Positions 26,261 to 59,171 are shown, numbered from the stretch's first letter. The stretch: DNA of 64,000 nt from Arcobacter sp. (GCA_024637195.1 JAGXFN010000002.1:62001-126000); one strand, 5' to 3'. Numbers and translations: made by a program. Notes: generated by a model from the sequence alone, not told the origin.

Positions 26261-26336
26261 GGTCCGTTAGCTCAGTTGGTAGAGCGCTACCTCGACAAGG
26301 TAGATGTCACTGGTTCGAGTCCAGTACGGACCACCA
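26261..26336 (+). tRNA. tRNA-Val(GAC)
   Basis: This is a 76-base tRNA with encoded CCA. The anticodon loop TCGACAA sits between CTACC and GGTAG, giving GAC. The acceptor stem is GGTCCGT/ACGGACC. It stands alone and is followed by a region with a decayed gene fragment. Confidence 0.97.
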
Positions 26337-26443
26337 TTCAAAAATTCTTTTTTTATTTGACCCCAACTAATGATTTATCACATTTGTAATCCTTCCCTTA
26401 ATTATATTGAAATTCTATCGTTTCTATGTCCTAATAAGTGTAG

Positions 26444-26596
26444 CCAGGTCACAATCTGGCGGATCTTCTGTGTCGTACCGGCAGATCAGAAGAGGCGCTG
26501 AAGCTTCTTGGGCAGGCTGTGAGCGATGATGCACAAACACAGGCTCTCATTAAAACCACGCGCGAAGAGATTGGCAGAGGCTGCTCACCCCTATAA
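26444..26596 (+). pseudogene. Remnant of a TPR-repeat protein gene
   Basis: Between tRNA-Val and the next operon a stop-bounded frame of 50 codons reads '...HNLADLLCRTGRSEEALKLLGQAV', then about 22 more residues and a TAA (26594-26596). The spacing of Leu, Ala, Gly and Glu is that of a tetratricopeptide repeat. There is no start codon or ribosome site, and a TAG (26441-26443) stands right in front. It looks like the C-terminal end of a lost gene. The rest of the gap (26337-26440 and 26597-26685) is AT-rich and holds nothing else I can identify. Confidence 0.5.
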
Positions 26597-26685
26597 AGCA
26601 ACAATTCAGCTACTGCATGAAAGTTTATAACAAATATTGATATTTTCTGTCTTGAAACATTCAGACCATTGTAACTTTCTTGGAG

Positions 26686-26691
26686 TATAAT
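26686..26691 (+). promoter_or_regulatory. -10 box for the protease/transglutaminase/ATP-grasp operon
   Basis: TATAAT lies 38 bases before the TTG start at 26729, predicting transcription from about 26698. Confidence 0.5.
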
Positions 26692-26728
26692 TCTGGAAAT
26701 TTGTTTACAATAAAAACAGGATGTCGCC

Positions 26729-27532
26729 TTGCATATAAAAATAGCCGCTTTTTTTCTCATCTCAGTCGTCACGCTTTTTTTTGCTGGCTGTAGCAATGCT
26801 CAGATCTACAGCTCGAAAGCAGATATAGAAAACCTGGAGCTGCAGATCCAAAATGCCCACACCTCTTTACAGCGCACCCTCGCAGAGACAGAGGAACAAC
26901 ATAAAAAAGAGCTTGAAACGATGGCGCATGAACACAATGCGCTTATAGAGTTCATGACAACTCAGTTTGAAGAGTTGAGACAAGAAAACAACAGCACGAT
27001 ACAATTTTTAAAAGAGTTCAAGTGCAAAGTACAAGAAGCAAAGCGGATTATCGTAAGAAAAAACAATAAAGTTCCGAAGTATCTGCATGAAAAGATCCTC
27101 TTGGGTGCGGTAGAAAATGTAAGGATAACTCCTCCTGATCTTGTTTCCATCGCTAGAATAGACTCCGGAGCAGAAACATCTTCTATCGATGCAAGAGATA
27201 TTGAAGCGTTTGAAAGAGATGGAGAAAACTGGGTCAAGTTCAACTTTGTAGACAGAAGCAACAACAGTGTCCATCCGATAGAAGCGAAGGTATTGAAACA
27301 CGTAAAGATCAAACAGTCCTCACAGGACGAAACCTCTGAGAGAAGAATTGTTATCCAACTGAAGATAAACATTGGTGATATTTCGGAACTGAGTGAATTT
27401 ACCCTCACCAACAGAGAGCATCTGAAGTTCCCCCTCTTAATCGGCAGAAATATTTTAAAAGATATCGCCGTTGTAGATGTAAGTGCTGATAACTTGGCGC
27501 CTCTCAAAAGTAAAACGGTGAAAAAACAGTGA
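26729..27532 (+). CDS. Retropepsin-like (RimK-associated, 'ATP-dependent zinc protease' family) lipoprotein
   Basis: 267 residues from a TTG start preceded by AAACAGG; no ATG is suitably placed. A lipoprotein signal ends in 'VVTLFFAGC' (Cys at about residue 21). A coiled-coil stalk (about 30-95, many Gln and Glu) leads to a PF05618-type domain (about 110-260). Its active-site loop reads 'ARIDSGAETSSIDA', the D-[ST]-G-A of retropepsin-like aspartic proteases, followed later by 'FPLLIGRNILKDIAVVDV'. The family was first named a zinc protease, but the motif is that of an aspartic protease. The predicted location is anchored in the periplasm. The next gene overlaps by 4 bases. The substrate is unknown. 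Confidence 0.85.
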   Translation: MHIKIAAFFLISVVTLFFAGCSNAQIYSSKADIENLELQIQNAHTSLQRTLAETEEQHKKELETMAHEHNALIEFMTTQFEELRQENNSTIQFLKEFKCKVQEAKRIIVRKNNKVPKYLHEKILLGAVENVRITPPDLVSIARIDSGAETSSIDARDIEAFERDGENWVKFNFVDRSNNSVHPIEAKVLKHVKIKQSSQDETSERRIVIQLKINIGDISELSEFTLTNREHLKFPLLIGRNILKDIAVVDVSADNLAPLKSKTVKKQ

Positions 27533-29037
27533 TAAAATATACCTTTAACTTCATCATTGTCTCACTGATTGCACTGGGTCTTTTTATCGCCTGGCAAAGA
27601 CATCAGCACACGCAGATCCCTTTTGTCAGTGATGAAAAAAAATCTATTTGGCTTATCGAAGCAAAGCTTGAGTTTGAAGCAGACAAGAACAAGCCGGTAC
27701 TAGCCTCTTTGAGCATACCTGATCGCATCCCCGGATACAAGCGGTTTTTTGAACAGAGTGCTTCTGCCGGATACGGTTTTAATATCGTAGATGTAGACGC
27801 GCAACGAAGAGCGCAGTGGAGCATACGAAAAGCCGAGGGCAAGCAAACCCTCTACTACAAAGTTCAAGCTACAGAAGACAAAAGCTCCGTAGACACGCAA
27901 GATGCAGAGGTTCCCTCGCCGGGTAAAGACATCATTTGGACGAAGGTTGAAGAGCTGGCACTTCAAGAACTTTTAGACAAGGCGCTCAGCCGTTCAAGCG
28001 ACGATGTGACCTTGACAAGAGAGCTTATAAAACTCTTGTCAAGCGAGTCTATGAAAGAGAGTGCCTCCTTGCTCTTGTCAAACAAAAAAAAAGTAAATGT
28101 AATAAACTCTATACTGCATGAAGCCGGGGTCAAAAGCCGAATCGCCATGGGACTAAAACTCGAAGATGCCAGAAGAAACCAGACCCTCTCAGCGATGATC
28201 GAAGTCTATTCCGGCAAGAAATGGGTACTCTTCAATCCGGTCACTGCAAAAGAAAATACAAAAGAGGAACTTTTTTTATGGCACAGAGGCGGTGCTTTGA
28301 TAGAGATAAACGGCGGCTCTAATGCCAATGTGACCTTTTCTATGGTGAAGCAAAATATTCCCGCGCTCGAACTGGCCAAAACCAACTATGACGACTCTAC
28401 TTTCGGACTCTTCAGTGTCAGCTCTTTGCCCATAGAAGAGCAGAGCATATTTAAAATACTGCTGCTTTTGCCTATAGGAGCATTGATCACGGTATTTATG
28501 CGTCTTGTGGTCGGGATAAAGACCTCTGGAACCTTTATGCCGGTACTCATCGCCATGGCATTTTTACAAACCACACTTTTGCCGGGACTTATCACCTTTG
28601 TGATGATAGTAGCGGTGGGACTGCTGATACGAAGCTACCTGTCCCATCTTAATCTTTTGTTGGTCTCACGAATAGCCACTACTATAATCATCGTTATTTT
28701 TATCATACTGATAGCAAGTATCGTAGGGCACAGTCTGGGCTTTAACACGGGAATGACTGTCGCAATCTTCCCTATCATAATCCTTGCCTGGACGATTGAA
28801 AGGATGTCGATACTATGGGAAGAAGATGGGGCGCAGGAGGTACTGAAGCAGGGCGGCGGAAGCTTGTTCGTAGCGAGTATCGCCTATCTTGCGATGCAAA
28901 GTTCTATTGTCGGACATCTGAGTTTCAACTTTCCCGAGATCAACCTCATTGTCTTGGCTTTTATGATGCTCATGGGCAGATACACCGGCTATAGGCTCTC
29001 GGAGTTTTATAGATTCAGAGATTTTAAGGCCTTTTAA
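27529..29037 (+). CDS. Inactive transglutaminase domain protein with seven membrane helices
   Basis: 502 residues from GTG (GTGA overlap with the upstream gene). An N-terminal membrane anchor (about 5-22) leads to a periplasmic region (about 25-305) holding a transglutaminase-like core at about 180-245. The catalytic Cys is absent ('NVINSILHEAGVKSRIAMGL') and the His position reads 'SAMIEVYSGKKWVLFNP', so it should be catalytically dead. Six or seven helices follow (about 308-485), with 'GIKTSGTFMPVLIAMAFLQT' and 'ERMSILWEEDG', matching the 7TM_transglut family. Such proteins are found with a RimK-like ligase and a retropepsin-like protease. It may bind a peptide and pass it or a signal across the membrane. 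The function is undetermined. Confidence 0.85.
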   Translation: MIKYTFNFIIVSLIALGLFIAWQRHQHTQIPFVSDEKKSIWLIEAKLEFEADKNKPVLASLSIPDRIPGYKRFFEQSASAGYGFNIVDVDAQRRAQWSIRKAEGKQTLYYKVQATEDKSSVDTQDAEVPSPGKDIIWTKVEELALQELLDKALSRSSDDVTLTRELIKLLSSESMKESASLLLSNKKKVNVINSILHEAGVKSRIAMGLKLEDARRNQTLSAMIEVYSGKKWVLFNPVTAKENTKEELFLWHRGGALIEINGGSNANVTFSMVKQNIPALELAKTNYDDSTFGLFSVSSLPIEEQSIFKILLLLPIGALITVFMRLVVGIKTSGTFMPVLIAMAFLQTTLLPGLITFVMIVAVGLLIRSYLSHLNLLLVSRIATTIIIVIFIILIASIVGHSLGFNTGMTVAIFPIIILAWTIERMSILWEEDGAQEVLKQGGGSLFVASIAYLAMQSSIVGHLSFNFPEINLIVLAFMMLMGRYTGYRLSEFYRFRDFKAF

Positions 29038-29984
29038 TGTTCTCTTTTATTTCGCTAAAGAGCCTGAAAGAAAACGGCATTTTAGGTATGAATGCCAGAA
29101 ATGTCGAGTTTATAGGAAAGTACAATGATAGAAAACTCTATCCTCTTGTTGACAACAAACTCAAAACAAAACGCTTGGCTCTAAAAGCCGGTATAAACAT
29201 GCCAAGTCTTTTTTTTACTCTCTCCAAACAGCATGATGTGGCGATTTTGCAAGAGAAGATACAGGGGTTGGATGCCTTTGTCATCAAACCGTCACGAGGC
29301 TCGGGCGGAAAAGGGATACTGGTCATAAAGTCTAGAATAGACGACAAGTTTGTAAAAGCAAATGATGAGCTGATCTCTCTGGACGTGCTCAAAAGACATG
29401 TCACCAATATCCTAGCCGGCCTCTACTCTCTTGGGGGAAATCAGGATGTCGCTATCTTTGAAGACCTTATTATCGCAGACACGCTTTTGAAAAACTACTC
29501 CTATCAGGGGGTTCCGGATATCAGAATAATCATCTTCAGAGGCTACCCTGTCATGGCAATGCTCAGGCTCTCTACACAATCATCTGACGGCAAGGCAAAC
29601 CTTCACCAAGGCGCAGTCGGCGTCGGTATAAACCTGAAAACCGCCAAGGCATCCTACGCTGTTTTGAAGCAGTCAAGAGTCCTCATCCACCCGGATACAA
29701 AAAACGTCCTGGATAAGATAGAGATCGCAAACTGGGGCGAACTGCTCATCCTCGCCGCCAAATGTTATGACATGACAAAACTGGGCTATTTGGGCGTAGA
29801 CATTGTTATTGATGAGAAAAAAGGGCCGATGCTCCTGGAGCTCAATGCAAGACCCGGACTCTCCATCCAAGTAGCCAATTCAAAAGGTCTGCTGCCTCGT
29901 CTAAGAGAGATAGAAAAGATAAAAGAGATAGACCCTATTGCAAAAAACCGCGTAGATTTTGTACTGAAACAAGACTGGTTCTAA
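29037..29984 (+). CDS. ATP-grasp ligase related to RimK (alpha-L-glutamate ligase-like)
   Basis: The 315 residues have an ATP-grasp fold: the ATP-binding strand and loop 'FVIKPSRGSGGKGILVI' (about residues 82-98), 'IFEDLIIADTLLKNYSYQGV', and the Mg-binding 'GPMLLELNARPGLSIQ' (about 262-277) with Glu and Asn in place, so it should be active. Family members join an amino acid, often Glu, to a carboxylate. It has no signal or membrane segment and so is cytoplasmic. It starts within the TAATG overlap of the transglutaminase gene, so the three genes are translationally coupled. The acceptor is unknown. Confidence 0.87.
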   Translation: MFSFISLKSLKENGILGMNARNVEFIGKYNDRKLYPLVDNKLKTKRLALKAGINMPSLFFTLSKQHDVAILQEKIQGLDAFVIKPSRGSGGKGILVIKSRIDDKFVKANDELISLDVLKRHVTNILAGLYSLGGNQDVAIFEDLIIADTLLKNYSYQGVPDIRIIIFRGYPVMAMLRLSTQSSDGKANLHQGAVGVGINLKTAKASYAVLKQSRVLIHPDTKNVLDKIEIANWGELLILAAKCYDMTKLGYLGVDIVIDEKKGPMLLELNARPGLSIQVANSKGLLPRLREIEKIKEIDPIAKNRVDFVLKQDWF

Positions 29985-30110: not shown

Positions 30111-30572
30111 ATGGAATATAAACTCAAAAACTCCATCGGATTTTGTATCAACCAAACAGCTAACAAAGTACATGCGATGTTTTCTCGTGAAATAGAGTCT
30201 TACGGCATTGCCCCGGAGCAGTTTGCGGCGATGATGATCATCGGTGAGGACAGTGAAACGAAGCAGTCGACGATCGCACAGATTTTGGGCAAAGGCCAGC
30301 CGACGGTTAGCCGTACTCTAGATGCTCTTGAAAAGAAGGGACTGGTTGCCCGCGACGCGCTTGAAACAGACCGTCGGGCAAAACGCATCTGCCTGACAGC
30401 CGAGGGAGAAGCGGTGCTGGACGCGGTGATCCCTTACGCAAAAGCCTTCAACGATACGATAAGAGATCGGCTTGAAGCCCAGGAGATAGAGATCTTTTTT
30501 AAAGTGCTCGAGACAATCCTCGAAACAGCAGATCAGTATGAGACAAAAGGAGAAAAAGAAAATGAGAAATAA
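30111..30572 (+). CDS. MarR-family transcriptional regulator
   Basis: The 153 residues have the MarR winged helix: a helix-turn-helix at about residues 55-80 ('TIAQILGKGQPTVSRTLDALEKKGLVAR', the recognition helix in its middle), the wing 'ALETDRRAKRICLTAEGEAV', and terminal helices for dimerisation. It is the first gene of an operon with a full RND pump, so it probably represses the pump and itself through the palindrome just upstream. Release by a small aromatic or amphipathic ligand is inferred from the family. Its end overlaps the start of the fusion-protein gene by 11 bases. Confidence 0.9.
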   Translation: MEYKLKNSIGFCINQTANKVHAMFSREIESYGIAPEQFAAMMIIGEDSETKQSTIAQILGKGQPTVSRTLDALEKKGLVARDALETDRRAKRICLTAEGEAVLDAVIPYAKAFNDTIRDRLEAQEIEIFFKVLETILETADQYETKGEKENEK

Positions 30573-31695
30573 AACAAGTGCGGTACTGCTGCTTTCAGCT
30601 GTGATGCTTTTTGGCGCCTCTTCCTTGCAGGCAGAAGAGTCCAAACCTATGGCTGCGCAGGCAGCACCGATGGTAGATGTATACACGGTCAGCCGGGCAG
30701 CACAGATGCCGATCAGTCTGGAATACCCGGCACGTCTGAAAAGCATCCGCAGCGCAATGGTGGTTGCGCGTGTCAGCGGAGTGCTGATGAAAAAAATGTA
30801 TGAAGAGGGAAGCTTTGTCAAAAAAGGAAGCCTTTTATATACGATCGAGTCTGACATTTATGCCGCACTGGTGCATGAGCGCGAAGCCGATATGGCCCTT
30901 CAAGAAGCGCTCTTAAAAAAGGCGCAGCGTGACTGGGAGCGCGCGGAAGCACTCTATCGCGATCAGGCATTAAGCATGCAGGAGTATGACAGTGCGCTTT
31001 CAGCTTTTGAAACAGCAAAAGCAGGACTAAACGCGGCAAAAGCCAAGCTGGCTTCGGCAAATGTCGATCTGGGATATACACAGGTAATAGCGCCGATCAG
31101 CGGAATAGCCGGCATCAAAGAGACGGATCTTGGCAATGTTGTCTCTTCAGGAACAGCGCTTGTGAACATCACGCAGAGTGATCCGATCCTTGCCGAATTT
31201 TCCATTCCCGACGTTGACCGTCTCAAAGCGCTTTATGCTTTGCAAGAAGGACGCTGGTCAGATGCGGGCAAAGACGGCCTGAAAGCGAAGCTTAATGTCG
31301 GCGGCGTTGTCAAAGAGGGTACAATCGACTACATCGATCCGGTGATAGACGCCAAGACCGGCAGTGTCAAGGCACGCGCGGTTTTCAAGAATGACGATGC
31401 ATTTTTGATGCAGGGCGCTTTCGGACGGATCACCGTGACGGGGTTTGTGCGCAACGATGTGGTGATGGTGCCGCAAAAAGCGGTGCTGCAAAACCCGATG
31501 GGCACGATTGTTTTTGTTATTGACGAGGGAAAAGCCGCTGTCCGTCCTGTAAAACTGGGCGATACGGCAGGCGACAAGTTCATCGTTGAAGAGGGGCTGA
31601 ACGAGGGGGATGTGGTGATCGTTAATAACTTCTTCCGCGTTAAACCGGGCATGGATGTTACGATAGACAAGACACTCAGCGGCGAAGGGAAGTAG
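30562..31695 (+). CDS. RND efflux pump periplasmic adaptor (membrane fusion protein)
   Basis: 377 residues from the ATG at 30562, which follows AAGGAG; an earlier ATG (30538) lacks a ribosome site. It has a signal peptide ending at about 'SSLQAEE', a lipoyl-like part ('VARVSGVLMKKMYEEGSFVKKG' region), an alpha-hairpin (about 100-160), the returning half ('LGYTQVIAPISGIAG'), a beta-barrel and a membrane-proximal domain. This is the AcrA/MexA layout. It links the inner-membrane pump with the outer-membrane channel, both encoded downstream. Confidence 0.93.
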   Translation: MRNKTSAVLLLSAVMLFGASSLQAEESKPMAAQAAPMVDVYTVSRAAQMPISLEYPARLKSIRSAMVVARVSGVLMKKMYEEGSFVKKGSLLYTIESDIYAALVHEREADMALQEALLKKAQRDWERAEALYRDQALSMQEYDSALSAFETAKAGLNAAKAKLASANVDLGYTQVIAPISGIAGIKETDLGNVVSSGTALVNITQSDPILAEFSIPDVDRLKALYALQEGRWSDAGKDGLKAKLNVGGVVKEGTIDYIDPVIDAKTGSVKARAVFKNDDAFLMQGAFGRITVTGFVRNDVVMVPQKAVLQNPMGTIVFVIDEGKAAVRPVKLGDTAGDKFIVEEGLNEGDVVIVNNFFRVKPGMDVTIDKTLSGEGK

Positions 31696-31697
31696 GC

Positions 31698-34600
31698 ATG
31701 TTTTCGAGATTTTTTATCGACAGGCCGATCTTTGCCTCGGTCATTTCGATCATCCTTGTCCTCGGCGGACTGATCTCCATCAAAGAGCTGCCGGTGCAGG
31801 AGTACCCAAGCATCATACCGCCGCAGATCAGCGTGCAGGCCGTCTATCCGGGTGCCGATGCGCAGACCCTGGCTAAAACCGTTGCCGCCCCGCTTGAAGA
31901 TGCGATCAACGGCGCAAAAAACATGATCTATATGACCTCGACTGCCTCTCCGAGCGGCATCTTGAACCTGAGCGTCACCTTTGCTACAGGCACCAATCCC
32001 GCTTCGGCTAACGTCGATGTCAACAACCGTGTGCAGGTCGCGCTGAACAAACTTCCCGAAGAGGTCCGCCGTCAGGGAGTGAGTGTCCGCGAGCGCTCGC
32101 CGGATATGCTCCGTGTTATCGCCTTTACTTCCGAAGAGGGGGTGCATGATGCGCTGTGGCTGAACAACTACGCTCTGATCAACGTCATGGACGATATCAA
32201 ACGCATCAAAGGCATCGGCGACGCCTTTTTGTTTGGAAGCAAGGAGTATGCTCTGCGTGTCTGGATCAAACCGGACAAGCTCGCAGCCTATGGCCTGACT
32301 GTCAACGATATTCTTGCCGTTATCCGCAGCCAGAACTCGCAGATAGCAGCCGGACAGATCGGGGATGAACCGATGACGTCCAAACAGGTCTATACCTATA
32401 CGGTGACGACTAAAGGACGGCTCAAAACAGCCGAAGAGTTCGGCAATATCCTTGTCCGCTCCAACCCCGACGGCTCGGCTTTGCGCTTGAGCGATGTTGC
32501 GGGCGTGGAGCTTGGTGCTGAGCGCTATATGCTAAAAGGCACCTACAACAAGAAAGACATGGCCGTCGCCGGTATCTTCCTGGCCCCGGGAGCGAATGCG
32601 CTTGCCGTGGCAGACGAACTGGACAAGGTCCTCGCAGAGACAGCGAAAAAGTTTCCAAAAGACGTACGCTATCACACGCTTTACGACACGACGACCTTTG
32701 TCAACGAGTCCATCAAAGAGGTGCTTTACACCCTTGCCGAGGCGCTGGTCATGGTTGTACTGATCATCTATCTCTTTTTGGGCAATGCCCGTGCGACGAT
32801 CATTCCTGTTTTGGCGATCCCGGTCTCCATCATCGGCACCTTTGCGGGGCTCTATGCGGCGGGCTACTCCATCAACCTGCTTACCCTCTTTGCCCTGATC
32901 CTGGCGATCGGGCTTGTGGTGGATGATGCGATCGTTGTTATTGAAAACGTTGAGCGGATCCTGCGCAAGCACAAGGGGATCAGTGTGCGTGAGGCGACGA
33001 TCGAGGCGATGCGCGAGATCACCGGTCCTGTTATAGCGATCGTTCTTGTCCTTTCGGCTGTCTTTATTCCCGCCGCGCTTGTCGGCGGGTTTAGCGGGAT
33101 GATGTACCAGCAGTTCTCGATCACCATCGTCATCTCTGTTGTGATCTCAGGCATCGTCGCCTTGACGCTCACACCGGCGCTGTGCGTCGTATTTTTGCGC
33201 GAGAAAGAGTCTGAACCCTTCTGGATCATCCAAAAGTTCAACCGCTTTTTTACGCGTCTGACGAATGGCTTTACGGCAGGGGTGCGCAAGATCATCCGCT
33301 ACGCCGTGCTTAATGTCGCACTCTTTGCGGTCTTGATCGCTGCGGCTGTTTTTCTAATGCAGAAACTTCCTACGGGGCTTGTTCCCAATGAGGATAAGGG
33401 TGCACTGATGATCCTTTCGTTTCTGATGCCGGCGGCGTCGTTGGAGCGTACGACCGAGGTGCAGGCGGCCGTAGCCGACACAGTATTGGCCAATCCAAAT
33501 ATCTCCAGCATTGGGGCAATGAGCGGGCTTGACCTGACCACCTTTGCCTTCAAGTCGGATGCGGGGATCGCCTTTGCCCACCTGAAAAACTGGTCTGAGC
33601 GAACGGCTCCGGAGCAGAGTGCGGAAGCGATCGCAGGCAGACTGATGGGGCAGCTCTCTTTGAACAAGGAGGCGATGGTCATCGCGGTCAATCCGCCGCC
33701 GATCAGAGGAATGAGTGCGACGGGCGGTTTTGAGATGTATGTGCAGGACCGTACGGGCGGAGAAATACAAGAACTCGACGGCTACATCAAGCAGATCGTC
33801 GAGAAGGCCAATGCACGTCCGGAACTCACCCGCGTAAGAACGACGCTGCAGACGGGCGTTCCCCAGTATCACATCACGGTTGACAGGGAAAAAGCAAAGG
33901 CGCTGGGCGTTGCGATCTCGGATATTTATACCACACTTGGAATGACCTTTGGCACAGGCTACGTCAATGACTTCAACCTTTACGGACGGACCTACCATGT
34001 CAACACGCAGGTGGAAGCCTCCGCCCGCGACAGCATAGAAGACTACCGCAATATTTTTGTGCGTGCGCAAAGCGGAGCTTTGGTTCCCATCAACACGCTC
34101 ATCCACGCCGAGCGGGTCGTCGGACCGAGTGTCATACAGCGTTTCAATATGTTCACCGCCGGCCAGATCTCCGGCCAGCCAAATCCGGGTTATAGCTCGG
34201 GAGATGCGATGCGCATCATCGAAGAGATAGCGGATGAGGTCTTGCCGGAAGGCTATTCAACTGCCTGGGCAGGCACGGCCTATCAGGAGCAAAAACTGGC
34301 CAAGGAGGGAAACCGCACCTTTATCTATGCGATCCTCTTTGTCTTCTTGATCCTGGCGGCGCTGTATGAGAGCTGGAGCATCCCTTTTGCTGTTTTGATG
34401 ACGGTGCCTTTTGCGCTTCTTGGAGCAGGACTCGGAGTCTTTTTACGCGGTCTGGAAAACGATATCTACTTCCAGGTAGGGCTGATCACTCTGGTGGGGC
34501 TGGCGGCAAAGAACGCGATCTTGATCGTGGAGTTTGCCCAGCAGAAGCTGCGGGAAGGTCTCTCGCTTTATGAGGCGACGATACAGGGCGCGCAGATCCG

Positions 34601-34826
34601 TTTCCGTCCGATCATCATGACCTCTCTGGCCTTTATCGGCGGGACGCTTCCTCTGGCGATTAGTTCGGGTGCGGGGGCAAACAGCCGCCATATCATCGGT
34701 ACTACCGTTGTCAGCGGGATGATCATGCTGACGGTCGTGGCGGTCTTTTTCATACCGCTTTTTTACTACCTGATCATGCGCGCAAAAGCGAAATTTTATA
34801 CAAAAGGAGTCCAAGATGAGAAGTAG
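31698..34826 (+). CDS. RND efflux pump inner-membrane transporter (HAE1 type)
   Basis: The 1042 residues match AcrB/MexB length and layout: twelve membrane helices and two large periplasmic loops. The N-terminal 'FFIDRPIFASVISIILVL' is typical. The proton-relay Asp pair is in 'LVVDDAIVVIENV' of helix 4, and 'GLAAKNAILIVEFA' contains the relay Lys of helix 10. It exports amphipathic compounds using proton motive force. It follows the adaptor gene by 2 bases and overlaps the channel gene by 11 bases. The substrate range cannot be read from the sequence. Confidence 0.95.
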   Translation: MFSRFFIDRPIFASVISIILVLGGLISIKELPVQEYPSIIPPQISVQAVYPGADAQTLAKTVAAPLEDAINGAKNMIYMTSTASPSGILNLSVTFATGTNPASANVDVNNRVQVALNKLPEEVRRQGVSVRERSPDMLRVIAFTSEEGVHDALWLNNYALINVMDDIKRIKGIGDAFLFGSKEYALRVWIKPDKLAAYGLTVNDILAVIRSQNSQIAAGQIGDEPMTSKQVYTYTVTTKGRLKTAEEFGNILVRSNPDGSALRLSDVAGVELGAERYMLKGTYNKKDMAVAGIFLAPGANALAVADELDKVLAETAKKFPKDVRYHTLYDTTTFVNESIKEVLYTLAEALVMVVLIIYLFLGNARATIIPVLAIPVSIIGTFAGLYAAGYSINLLTLFALILAIGLVVDDAIVVIENVERILRKHKGISVREATIEAMREITGPVIAIVLVLSAVFIPAALVGGFSGMMYQQFSITIVISVVISGIVALTLTPALCVVFLREKESEPFWIIQKFNRFFTRLTNGFTAGVRKIIRYAVLNVALFAVLIAAAVFLMQKLPTGLVPNEDKGALMILSFLMPAASLERTTEVQAAVADTVLANPNISSIGAMSGLDLTTFAFKSDAGIAFAHLKNWSERTAPEQSAEAIAGRLMGQLSLNKEAMVIAVNPPPIRGMSATGGFEMYVQDRTGGEIQELDGYIKQIVEKANARPELTRVRTTLQTGVPQYHITVDREKAKALGVAISDIYTTLGMTFGTGYVNDFNLYGRTYHVNTQVEASARDSIEDYRNIFVRAQSGALVPINTLIHAERVVGPSVIQRFNMFTAGQISGQPNPGYSSGDAMRIIEEIADEVLPEGYSTAWAGTAYQEQKLAKEGNRTFIYAILFVFLILAALYESWSIPFAVLMTVPFALLGAGLGVFLRGLENDIYFQVGLITLVGLAAKNAILIVEFAQQKLREGLSLYEATIQGAQIRFRPIIMTSLAFIGGTLPLAISSGAGANSRHIIGTTVVSGMIMLTVVAVFFIPLFYYLIMRAKAKFYTKGVQDEK

Positions 34827-36213
34827 TCTTTATCTGATGCTTACTGTGCTCATTCTTGCCAGCGGCTGCTCTATGGCTCCGAAGCTAGATATGCAGACGC
34901 TGGCCCTTCCTGCAAGTATCGCAGACACCAATGCCTCGCTGGCAATAGATGACAAATGGTGGGAGGCCTTTGGCGATGCCCATCTCAACAGCCTTGTTGA
35001 AGAAGCCCTTTTAAACAACGATGACCTTAAGCTCGCCTTGAGCAGTGTGGCGCAGGCACGGGCAACCTTAGGTCTGCGCGAAGCAGAGCGCTATCCTGAT
35101 ATCAACGCCGGCGCATCCGGGTTACGCCAGAAAACAAGCGGTGAAAGTCTCTCACCTTTTGCGGGTGTACAGTATGACACCTTCAGCCTTTCTGCTTCGG
35201 CGGCTTATGAGTTCGACTTCTGGGGACGGTACAAGAACAGCGAAGAGGCTGCCTTATCAGAACTTTTGGCGAGCGAGGCCGACAAGGAGACGATCCGCAT
35301 TTCCCTAGTCAGCAGCGTGGCAGAGCTTTATTTTAATCTTGTCGCTTTGCAGCGCCAGGTCAACGTGACCGAAGAGACCATTCACGCCTATAAAGAGAGC
35401 TATACGTACCGTTTGAACCAGTATAAACACGGGGTCATCGATGCCTTGACGCTTGAGCAGGCGCATGCCCTCTATGCCAATGCCAAACTAACACTGGCAT
35501 CGTTGCAGGAAAGGAAGATATTAAGCGGCAGTGCGCTTGCTGTTTTACTTGGAAAAAGCCCAAAAGAGATCTTTGAAGAAAGGATCAGACTGAAGACGGC
35601 TGTTCTGCCTCAGCCTTTGACGATACCCTCGGGCCTAGACTCAAATCTGCTTGAACAGCGCCCTGATATCCGTGCTTCTCAAGAGAGACTGGCGGCGGCC
35701 AATGCCCTTATCGGCGTGGCGAAGGCAGACTACTTTCCGTCGATCTCTTTGACAGGTTCGGCCGGTTTGCAAAGCACCGAACTTGGCAATCTGATGCGTT
35801 CCTCTGCGGGCATGTGGAGTTTTGGCCCCTCGATAAGCATTCCGCTCTTTGATTTTGGCCGCACAGAGAACCGGGTCAAGAGTGCAGAAGAACAGAAGAC
35901 GAGCGCCATGATCAGCTACGCAAAAACAGTGAAAAATGCTTTCAAAGAGGTCTATGACAGCTTGAAAAAGATAGAAATGTCCCATGAGAAAATAAGAGCA
36001 CAGAACGAAGCGACACAGGCGCTGCAAAAAGTCTTTACGATCTCTCAAAAACGTTTTGACAGCGGCTATGGCACCTATCTTGAAGTCGTGGATGCGAAAC
36101 GGGGGCTGCTCAGCTCTTTGATCAACACCATCTCTCTCGACGCGGAACTTGTCATTAACCAGATTACGCTTTACAAGGCCCTTGGCGGCGGATGGAAAGC
36201 AACAAAAGGTTAA
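34816..36213 (+). CDS. Outer-membrane channel lipoprotein of the RND pump (NodT/OprM family)
   Basis: The 465 residues begin with a lipoprotein signal ('LILASGCSMAP'). The two repeated outer-membrane-efflux halves follow (about 45-240 and 265-455), with 'WWEAFGDAHLNSLVEEAL' and 'LEQRPDIRASQERLAAANA' as marks of the NodT/CusC/OprM group. It forms the trimeric exit duct. SD AAAGGAG lies within the transporter gene. It is the last gene of the marR operon. The gap after it (36214-36346) shows no clear terminator. Confidence 0.94.
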   Translation: MRSSLYLMLTVLILASGCSMAPKLDMQTLALPASIADTNASLAIDDKWWEAFGDAHLNSLVEEALLNNDDLKLALSSVAQARATLGLREAERYPDINAGASGLRQKTSGESLSPFAGVQYDTFSLSASAAYEFDFWGRYKNSEEAALSELLASEADKETIRISLVSSVAELYFNLVALQRQVNVTEETIHAYKESYTYRLNQYKHGVIDALTLEQAHALYANAKLTLASLQERKILSGSALAVLLGKSPKEIFEERIRLKTAVLPQPLTIPSGLDSNLLEQRPDIRASQERLAAANALIGVAKADYFPSISLTGSAGLQSTELGNLMRSSAGMWSFGPSISIPLFDFGRTENRVKSAEEQKTSAMISYAKTVKNAFKEVYDSLKKIEMSHEKIRAQNEATQALQKVFTISQKRFDSGYGTYLEVVDAKRGLLSSLINTISLDAELVINQITLYKALGGGWKATKG

Positions 36214-56949: not shown

Positions 56950-58206
56950 ATGAAAATAGCCATTATTGGGTTAGGTTATGTCGGGTTGCCCTTAGCTGTA
57001 GCTTTTGCAGAAAAATATGAAACTATTGGGTTTGATATTAATAAGCAGCGTATAGAAGAGCTCAAAAACAGTTTTGATCGCACAATGGAAATAGATACGG
57101 CAGCTCTAACAAACAGCACGCTTGGTTACACTTGCCAACTTGATGACTTAAAAGAGTGTAATATTTACATTGTGACGGTACCGACTCCAATCGACAAAAG
57201 CAATAGACCCGATCTGTTTCCAATAGAAAGTTCAACAAAAATGATTGCGGAGCTTCTTAAAAAAGATGATATTGTGATTTATGAGTCAACCGTATATCCG
57301 GGTGTAACTGAGGATATTTGTGTCCCTATTTTGGAGAAAAACTCTGGACTTATATTTAATAAAGACTTTTACTGCGGCTACTCTCCTGAACGCATTAACC
57401 CGGGCGATAAAAATCATACTGTAACAAAGATCTTAAAGGTAACCTCGGGATCGACTCCTGCAATAGCAAAAAAAATAGATGATTTATATAAGAGTATTAT
57501 CATAGCTGGAACATTTATGGCCTCGAGTATAAAAGTAGCCGAAGCTTCCAAAGTAATTGAAAATACACAAAGAGACGTTAATATTGCTTTGATTAATGAA
57601 TTGGCCCTCATCTTTGATACTATGGGAATTGACACAAATGAAGTCATTGAAGCCGCTTCTACTAAATGGAACTTTATCAAACTGCATCCTGGTCTTGTGG
57701 GTGGACATTGTATTGGGGTTGACCCTTATTATCTGACACATAAGGCCGAAGAGATGGGGTATACGCCAAATCTTATTCTCGCCTCTCGAATCATCAACAA
57801 TTCAATGGGGATGTACATTTCTCAAAAATGCATCAAGCTTTTAATTGATAATGATAAAAAAGTTAAACACTCTAAAGTTTTGATCTTGGGCTTGACCTTT
57901 AAAGAAGATTGTCCAGATATACGGAACACAAAGGTGATTGATATTATTGAGGATCTGAAAGAGTTTGGCTGCATAGTGGACGTATATGACCCTTGGGTAG
58001 ATATGGCTGAAGAAAAGAAGCATTACAAACATGGACTTATCAGCAATCCTTTTAAAAATACGATGAAGTATGATGCCGTTATTGTTGCAGTAGGCCACAG
58101 ACAGTTCAAGACCTTGAATATGAGTGATTATGAGAGCATTTCCAATGGCCAGTCTGTAGTATTAGATATCAAAGGTATTGTAGAAAAACCAAGTTGGAGA
58201 CTGTAG
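56950..58206 (+). CDS. UDP-N-acetylhexosamine 6-dehydrogenase (TviB/WbpO-like)
   Basis: The 418 residues have the UDP-glucose/GDP-mannose dehydrogenase layout: N-terminal NAD domain 'IAIIGLGYVGLPLAVAFAE', 'TVPTPIDKSNRPD', 'YESTVYPGVTED', and the catalytic Cys in 'PGLVGGHCIGVDPYYLTHKA'. That last form is the TviB/WbpO version, which oxidises UDP-GlcNAc or UDP-GalNAc to the uronic acid. With the oxidoreductase, acetyltransferase and aminotransferase genes that follow directly, it probably begins a pathway to a 2,3-diacetamido-uronic acid for O-antigen or capsule. Confidence 0.9.
   Translation: MKIAIIGLGYVGLPLAVAFAEKYETIGFDINKQRIEELKNSFDRTMEIDTAALTNSTLGYTCQLDDLKECNIYIVTVPTPIDKSNRPDLFPIESSTKMIAELLKKDDIVIYESTVYPGVTEDICVPILEKNSGLIFNKDFYCGYSPERINPGDKNHTVTKILKVTSGSTPAIAKKIDDLYKSIIIAGTFMASSIKVAEASKVIENTQRDVNIALINELALIFDTMGIDTNEVIEAASTKWNFIKLHPGLVGGHCIGVDPYYLTHKAEEMGYTPNLILASRIINNSMGMYISQKCIKLLIDNDKKVKHSKVLILGLTFKEDCPDIRNTKVIDIIEDLKEFGCIVDVYDPWVDMAEEKKHYKHGLISNPFKNTMKYDAVIVAVGHRQFKTLNMSDYESISNGQSVVLDIKGIVEKPSWRL

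Positions 58207-59171
<965 letters not shown>

Follow-up and report, generated by a model that had tools for sequence, protein, structure and literature searches.

The rlo operon of Arcobacter

The window, the whole stretch of 64,000 nucleotides that was analysed, comes from Arcobacter sp. (Campylobacterota) and contains a three-gene operon of the stress-tolerance type termed rlo and known from Pseudomonas. The genes rloA, rloB and rloC are adjacent in that order on one strand. Checks of families and residues confirmed the three products named in the initial annotation of this DNA: a lipoprotein retropepsin, an inactive transglutaminase carrying a 7TM domain, and an ATP-grasp ligase with intact motifs. 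The features are:

26686..26691, + strand: putative -10 box TATAAT of the operon, an exact hexamer in GTATAATTCT
26729..27532, + strand: rloA, stalked lipoprotein retropepsin, 267 aa, TTG start (PF05618, E 1e-36; structurally similar to 2pma and to the RloA crystals 9g58/9g59)
26729..26791, + strand: predicted lipoprotein signal peptide and lipobox of RloA, TLFFAG-Cys21, +2 residue Ser and not Asp, as judged from sequence (77 stalked relatives likewise lack Asp there)
26816..27052, + strand: predicted helical stalk, RloA residues 30-108, 79 residues, ~12 nm if fully helical (single helix in AlphaFold2)
27089..27496, + strand: retropepsin domain, RloA residues 121-256; Asp145 codon 27161-27163; polyglutamate-binding R143, K190, R206 and R229
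27529..29037, + strand: rloB, N-terminal membrane helix, periplasmic inactive transglutaminase and 7TM domain, 502 aa, GTG start (PF14400 and PF14402)
28432..29028, + strand: 7TM domain of RloB, residues 302-500 (PF14402; helices in the model)
29037..29984, + strand: rloC, cytoplasmic ATP-grasp ligase, 315 aa, ATG start (TIGR02291 and PF14397; invariant catalytic motifs)

The genes are coupled through overlapping start and stop codons, as had been annotated with the right coordinates: the rloB start overlaps the rloA stop by 4 bp, and within TAATG the stop of rloB and the start of rloC share 1 bp. The TTG start of rloA is preceded by AGGA, and rloA of the sibling genome L039, whose locus is ~86% identical over 5 kb, likewise begins with TTG. 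Of the single promoter first proposed, a conserved -10 box is what remains. The TATAAT at 26686 lies within a segment conserved with two related genomes, since GTATAATTCT is kept in L039 and ATATAATGCT, which also contains the hexamer, stands at the matching place in L034. A search for a sigma-70 two-hexamer promoter upstream of rloA gave no match and no clear -35 box, and a promoter of that kind was rejected.

The upstream neighbour of the operon is a tRNA-Val gene (26261-26336) and the downstream neighbour is a marR-like gene at 30111. The latter belongs to a region (30111-36213) in which a marR-type regulator is followed by a complete RND-type efflux operon comprising membrane-fusion protein, pump and outer-membrane factor. 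Right after the tRNA-Val gene, a stretch of 285 bp (26344-26628) occupies the place of 31 bp in L039; a 55-bp part of it has one further copy in the genome (84%), and the stretch looks like the remnant of a tRNA-adjacent insertion.

Relation to known systems

The operon is almost certainly of the type already described in P. aeruginosa, where rlo was named in a 2025 mBio paper that also gives crystal structures (PMC12239564). In vitro, RloA cuts polyglutamate in stretches of eight or more glutamates and cleaves RpsF bearing eight glutamates, and in the P. aeruginosa proteome the authors found a single candidate for a genome-encoded acidic substrate, which RloA left uncut (PMC12239564). Cells devoid of all three RloA paralogues do not grow in low salt and have shape, biofilm and antibiotic defects. 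When rloB or rloC is deleted in this triple protease mutant, growth in low salt recovers completely and the other defects recover in part, and single rloB or rloC mutants have mild defects of their own (PMC12239564). In Pseudomonas, rlo controls osmotic and antibiotic tolerance as well as cell shape and biofilm formation, and the statement in the initial annotation that no product or phenotype was established is contradicted by these phenotypes, the crystal structures and the in-vitro activity. No follow-up to this paper was found in PMC. In a transposon screen of Shewanella vesiculosa, loss of a 7TM inactive-transglutaminase gene raised membrane-vesicle production (PMC12096838), which is again an envelope phenotype.

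The Arcobacter operon shares with those of P. aeruginosa and P. fluorescens the gene order, all domain families, the retropepsin fold, the basic polyglutamate-binding residues and the inactive transglutaminase. It differs in that Pseudomonas RloA is short and secreted by a simple signal peptide, whereas Arcobacter RloA is a stalked lipoprotein with a lipobox, and in that this genome has one RloA-type gene where P. aeruginosa has three. The RimB-RimK system, which serves RpsF polyglutamylation, also combines a PF05618-family retropepsin with an ATP-grasp glutamate ligase, but it is cytoplasmic and has no membrane partner, in contrast to Arcobacter RloA with its lipobox and its partner rloB. A RimB/RimK-like pair is present in the same genome (G000, contig C12, near 57300-58550; L023), so that both retropepsin-ligase systems coexist there.

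RloA, an anchored and stalked retropepsin

RloA carries the D-S/T-G-A motif of its family (PF05618, E=1e-36 by profile search) in the catalytic loop IDSGAETSS, with Asp145 as catalytic residue. By E-value, the closest fold to its protease domain is Legionella Lpg0085 (2pma; E 8e-12, TM-score 0.81 on target), a solved DUF785 retropepsin of the same fold whose structure comprises the protease domain only. P. fluorescens RloA (9g58; TM-score 0.75 on target, 37% identity) and P. aeruginosa RloA2 (9g59) are also among the best structural matches. Residues were mapped through 9g58 with a 20-residue offset, and this numbering is trustworthy because all nine residues specified in PMC12239564 come out with the right identity. 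The four pseudosymmetric polyglutamate contacts of P. aeruginosa (K46, R92, R114 and R137) correspond to R143, K190, R206 and R229 here, each position being Arg or Lys in 33-34 of 34 aligned RloA sequences. A disulfide is reported to be conserved in periplasmic orthologues, whereas the Arcobacter catalytic domain does without it, since residues 121-267 contain no cysteine and the only two in the protein are Cys21 and Cys99; the disulfide-forming pair was regarded as a secondary feature and not as operon-defining. RloA falls below the NCBIfam RloA1 'exception' cut-off (83.5 bits against 280) and below that of the RimB model NF052261 (66.8 bits against 200).

The lipobox cysteine is followed by Ser (FFAG-Cys-Ser), and Asp at +2 occurs in 0 of 77 relatives; RloA is probably held at the outer membrane. 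In the AlphaFold2 model, residues 30-108 form one uninterrupted helix, with pLDDT mostly >90 up to residue 80. The stalk may plausibly be a coiled coil, as originally proposed; a shuffle test of the heptad pattern gave p=0.065 for this stalk and p<0.05 for 49% of 77 stalks.

RloB and RloC

RloB matches PF14400 (8e-46) and PF14402 (5e-104), and its score of 349 bits with NF052267 is below the NCBIfam RloB 'exception' cut-off of 900. The RloA1 and RloB cut-offs look like narrow naming thresholds, since soluble-type Gammaproteobacterial operons miss them too. The AF2 model of RloB (mean pLDDT 82) consists of an N-terminal helix, a beta-rich transglutaminase-like region and the 7TM domain. The transglutaminase part matches 3isr (E 2e-8) in a fold search, which found no reliable match in the PDB for the 7TM part and no transporter relative. 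Cys211, His246 and Asp261 of relatives with the triad align with Asn185, Ser221 and Asn236 of RloB; absence of Cys and His had been noticed before, and the triad Asp proves to be lost as well. With all three residues gone, the transglutaminase of RloB is, to judge from the alignment, catalytically dead.

RloC belongs to PF14397 (7e-91) and TIGR02291 (2e-123), the score for the latter (411.6 bits) exceeding the cut-off of 314.2. ATP-grasp positions, e.g. K84, D255, E268 and N270, do not vary across 26 sequences, which upholds the earlier description of a ligase with intact ATP and Mg sites, and this invariance extends to distant loci with an active transglutaminase and to the genome's own RimK-like protein. 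RloC is ~26% identical to the latter and its best PDB match has an E-value of 4e-4; because it resembles RimK weakly in sequence, the amino acid that it uses is uncertain.

Constancy of the unit

Among 80 loci from 80 named genomes, 79 have all three genes side by side, and the remaining one (L081) is cut by a contig end. When genomes were sampled evenly, 57 of 274 Gammaproteobacteria carried PF14402, as did 22 of 297 Thermodesulfobacteriota and 9 of 298 Campylobacterota. The protease adjoins rloB in 29 of 30 Gammaproteobacterial and 20 of 21 Thermodesulfobacteriota loci with a dead transglutaminase and enough flank, the ligase is found in all of these loci whose contig extends far enough, and among Campylobacterota the unit is found in several different neighbourhoods. 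The association of the genes is more than chance. Scattered homologues or unconserved ligase motifs had been named beforehand as what would speak against a system; the genes are contiguous and the ligase residues are invariant, an outcome in favour of the system.

RloB-RloC is the constant core, which also occurs with an intact transglutaminase and without RloA, as at L163 (L194) and L226, where rloB-rloC have no adjacent rloA. In L028, from a member of the same genus, rloC is followed immediately by another PF05618 protease gene (L028:5710-6267), so that two proteases flank rloB-rloC.

Sister loci with an intact transglutaminase

Seven loci from seven genomes (L031, L032 and L177-L181), belonging to Campylobacterota and Gammaproteobacteria, encode a 7TM protein with an intact Cys-His-Asp triad and a RloC-family ligase, and have no retropepsin. 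They share the 7TM family and the ligase family with rlo and differ from it in the live triad and the missing protease. They also encode a TPR membrane protein and, in most cases, an exported protein of ~400 aa; proteins in L031 and L179 have weak matches to outer-membrane barrels. In the literature searched, no name for or study of loci combining an intact-transglutaminase 7TM protein, an ATP-grasp ligase and a TPR protein was found. At L181:4476-6992, a single protein of 838 aa unites the active transglutaminase (intact triad), the 7TM domain and the ATP-grasp ligase, and with this fusion the 7TM domain has its C terminus in the cytoplasm, where ATP is. A second RloB-RloC fusion, suggested at L227 by frame length, was rejected as the matches turned out to be in separate frames. 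A third type of 7TM-transglutaminase protein (~540 aa) has no ligase gene beside it (L182, L183 and L184); in L182, His and Asp of the triad appear to be kept and Cys does not.

A stalked clade acquired horizontally

RloA proteins encoded in rlo operons are of three kinds: some are short and secreted, and the others are lipoproteins with either a lysine-rich linker or a helical stalk. In an 87-row RloB tree, built like the others with a quick method, the stalked form makes up exactly one clade (one change against a shuffled mean of 27.5; SH-aLRT 99), a result that rests partly on manual labels, 18 of 120 loci having been relabelled by eye from sequence; pattern-only classing had miscalled several lipoproteins as soluble. 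This clade is separate from the short soluble Pseudomonas-type form, and its linkers measure 60-113 residues (median 87). The lipid anchor and stalk, which the initial annotation singled out as notable, are both present, but the stalk is a clade-wide trait, and the idea of a peculiarity of Arcobacter rloA was rejected. The words 'lipoprotein' and 'coiled' do not occur in the main text of PMC12239564; the tethered-protease form of rlo has been little noticed, and the clade-wide occurrence of the stalk is new here. Scores of a Pseudomonas-derived RloB model are 456-494 bits for six soluble-type operons and 324-352 bits for stalked or linker types, which places Pseudomonas with the soluble group. 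Arcobacter RloB, at 349 bits with NF052267 against the 456-494 of soluble-type relatives, lies in another clade than the Pseudomonas protein.

Arcobacter RloB is 93% identical to that of the sibling L039, 74% to L034 and 58% to L033. It is 46-54% identical to sampled Gammaproteobacterial and desulfo-type proteins and ~36-43% to other Campylobacterota RloB, and in the tree it falls inside a Gammaproteobacteria/Desulfuromonadales clade. A single, vertically inherited Campylobacterota clade was rejected (AU p=0.003, quick tree), and a member of the same genus carries the other rlo lineage (G002, L028). By these sequence comparisons, the operon belongs to a horizontally acquired lineage.

Possible function of the operon

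We give about an even chance to a full chain of synthesis, export and trimming through which rlo here would handle an acidic peptide in the cell envelope. Cytoplasmic RloC would build an oligomer of glutamate or some other acidic amino acid, either free or attached to a carrier, as its family and the substrate of the protease suggest. RloB, its C terminus facing RloC, would move the product out, with the dead transglutaminase serving as a periplasmic binding domain; synthesis and export of the acidic peptide would thus fall to RloB-RloC. At the outer membrane, dimeric RloA would hold its protease domain on the 12-nm helix into the periplasm and cut the peptide there, an activity taken from the Pseudomonas homologue only and combined with an anchor and stalk predicted from sequence and model. 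In cells that lack RloA, this product would accumulate in the periplasm and dilute media would no longer be tolerated, and such an accumulation would account for the cure of the protease-less P. aeruginosa mutant by removal of RloB or RloC. The mild defects of rloB and rloC single mutants argue that the product is not merely toxic. These defects count against the chain, as do the missing structural relative of the 7TM domain, the faint resemblance of RloC to RimK and the weakness of the outer-membrane-barrel matches. The model first proposed, a ligase adding amino acids, a 7TM protein binding or moving the product and an outer protease trimming it, fits this evidence; trimming of a receptor, its other variant, has found no support.

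The epistasis predicted by synthesis, export and trimming would equally arise if RloC added polyglutamate to one particular protein or envelope precursor, in the way that RimK acts on RpsF, with RloB handling or recognizing the modified substrate and RloA removing the tail, a reversible modification with no free polymer. The RimB/RimK precedent, cleavage of RpsF with eight glutamates in vitro and the cell-shape and cell-wall-antibiotic phenotypes speak for this reading. We nevertheless hold it to be rather unlikely, since RloC is cytoplasmic and RloA outside, so that a modified protein would need export, and since the one candidate acidic substrate in the P. aeruginosa proteome was uncut. The intact-transglutaminase relatives also point to a polymer: in place of a protease, their 7TM protein and ligase have TPR and putative outer-membrane proteins as partners, which is why we favour synthesis, export and trimming, and the TPR and weak barrel proteins fit what an export route would have. 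These same relatives weigh on the quite improbable proposal that RloB is a sensor or receptor, whose dead transglutaminase binds a periplasmic peptide and controls RloC, RloA destroying the signal. A catalytically dead periplasmic domain on a 7TM protein and the existence of a RloB-RloC fusion (L181) would suit such a role, but that fusion has an active transglutaminase and adjoins a TPR protein, which a role in biosynthesis and export fits better; moreover, the ligase motifs are invariant and loss of rloC alone suppresses the protease mutant.

Export of an acidic peptide by RloB is made directly testable by the fusion and the intact-transglutaminase sister loci. More speculatively, and with doubts outweighing support, a periplasmic acidic-peptide cycle may operate in several phyla: RloC would build an oligoglutamate-like polymer, RloB would be a new kind of 7TM exporter, and the tethered retropepsin would set the amount, tuning periplasmic osmotic pressure, while the live transglutaminase of the sister system would attach or cross-link the same polymer outside.

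A further question, compatible with this mechanism and touching only the importance of the stalk, is whether the latter is a mere tethering spacer and the operon acts exactly like that of Pseudomonas. We consider this possible, at somewhat less than even chance: soluble, lysine-rich-linker and stalked RloA all occupy the same operon position, but a stalk kept at its length throughout the clade and helical in the model speaks against it. The stalked form is a second, separately evolving version of rlo, and as the Arcobacter host and two sampled relatives each have just one RloA-type protease, deletion of one gene should be enough to reveal the phenotype. Halioglobus pacificus and Desulfatitalea alkaliphila are stalk-clade bacteria with one PF05618 gene. 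Between lipobox and protease, the RloA proteins of L024, L025, L026, L035, L037 and L038 have linkers very rich in lysine, which might hold an acidic substrate electrostatically or might simply be disordered.
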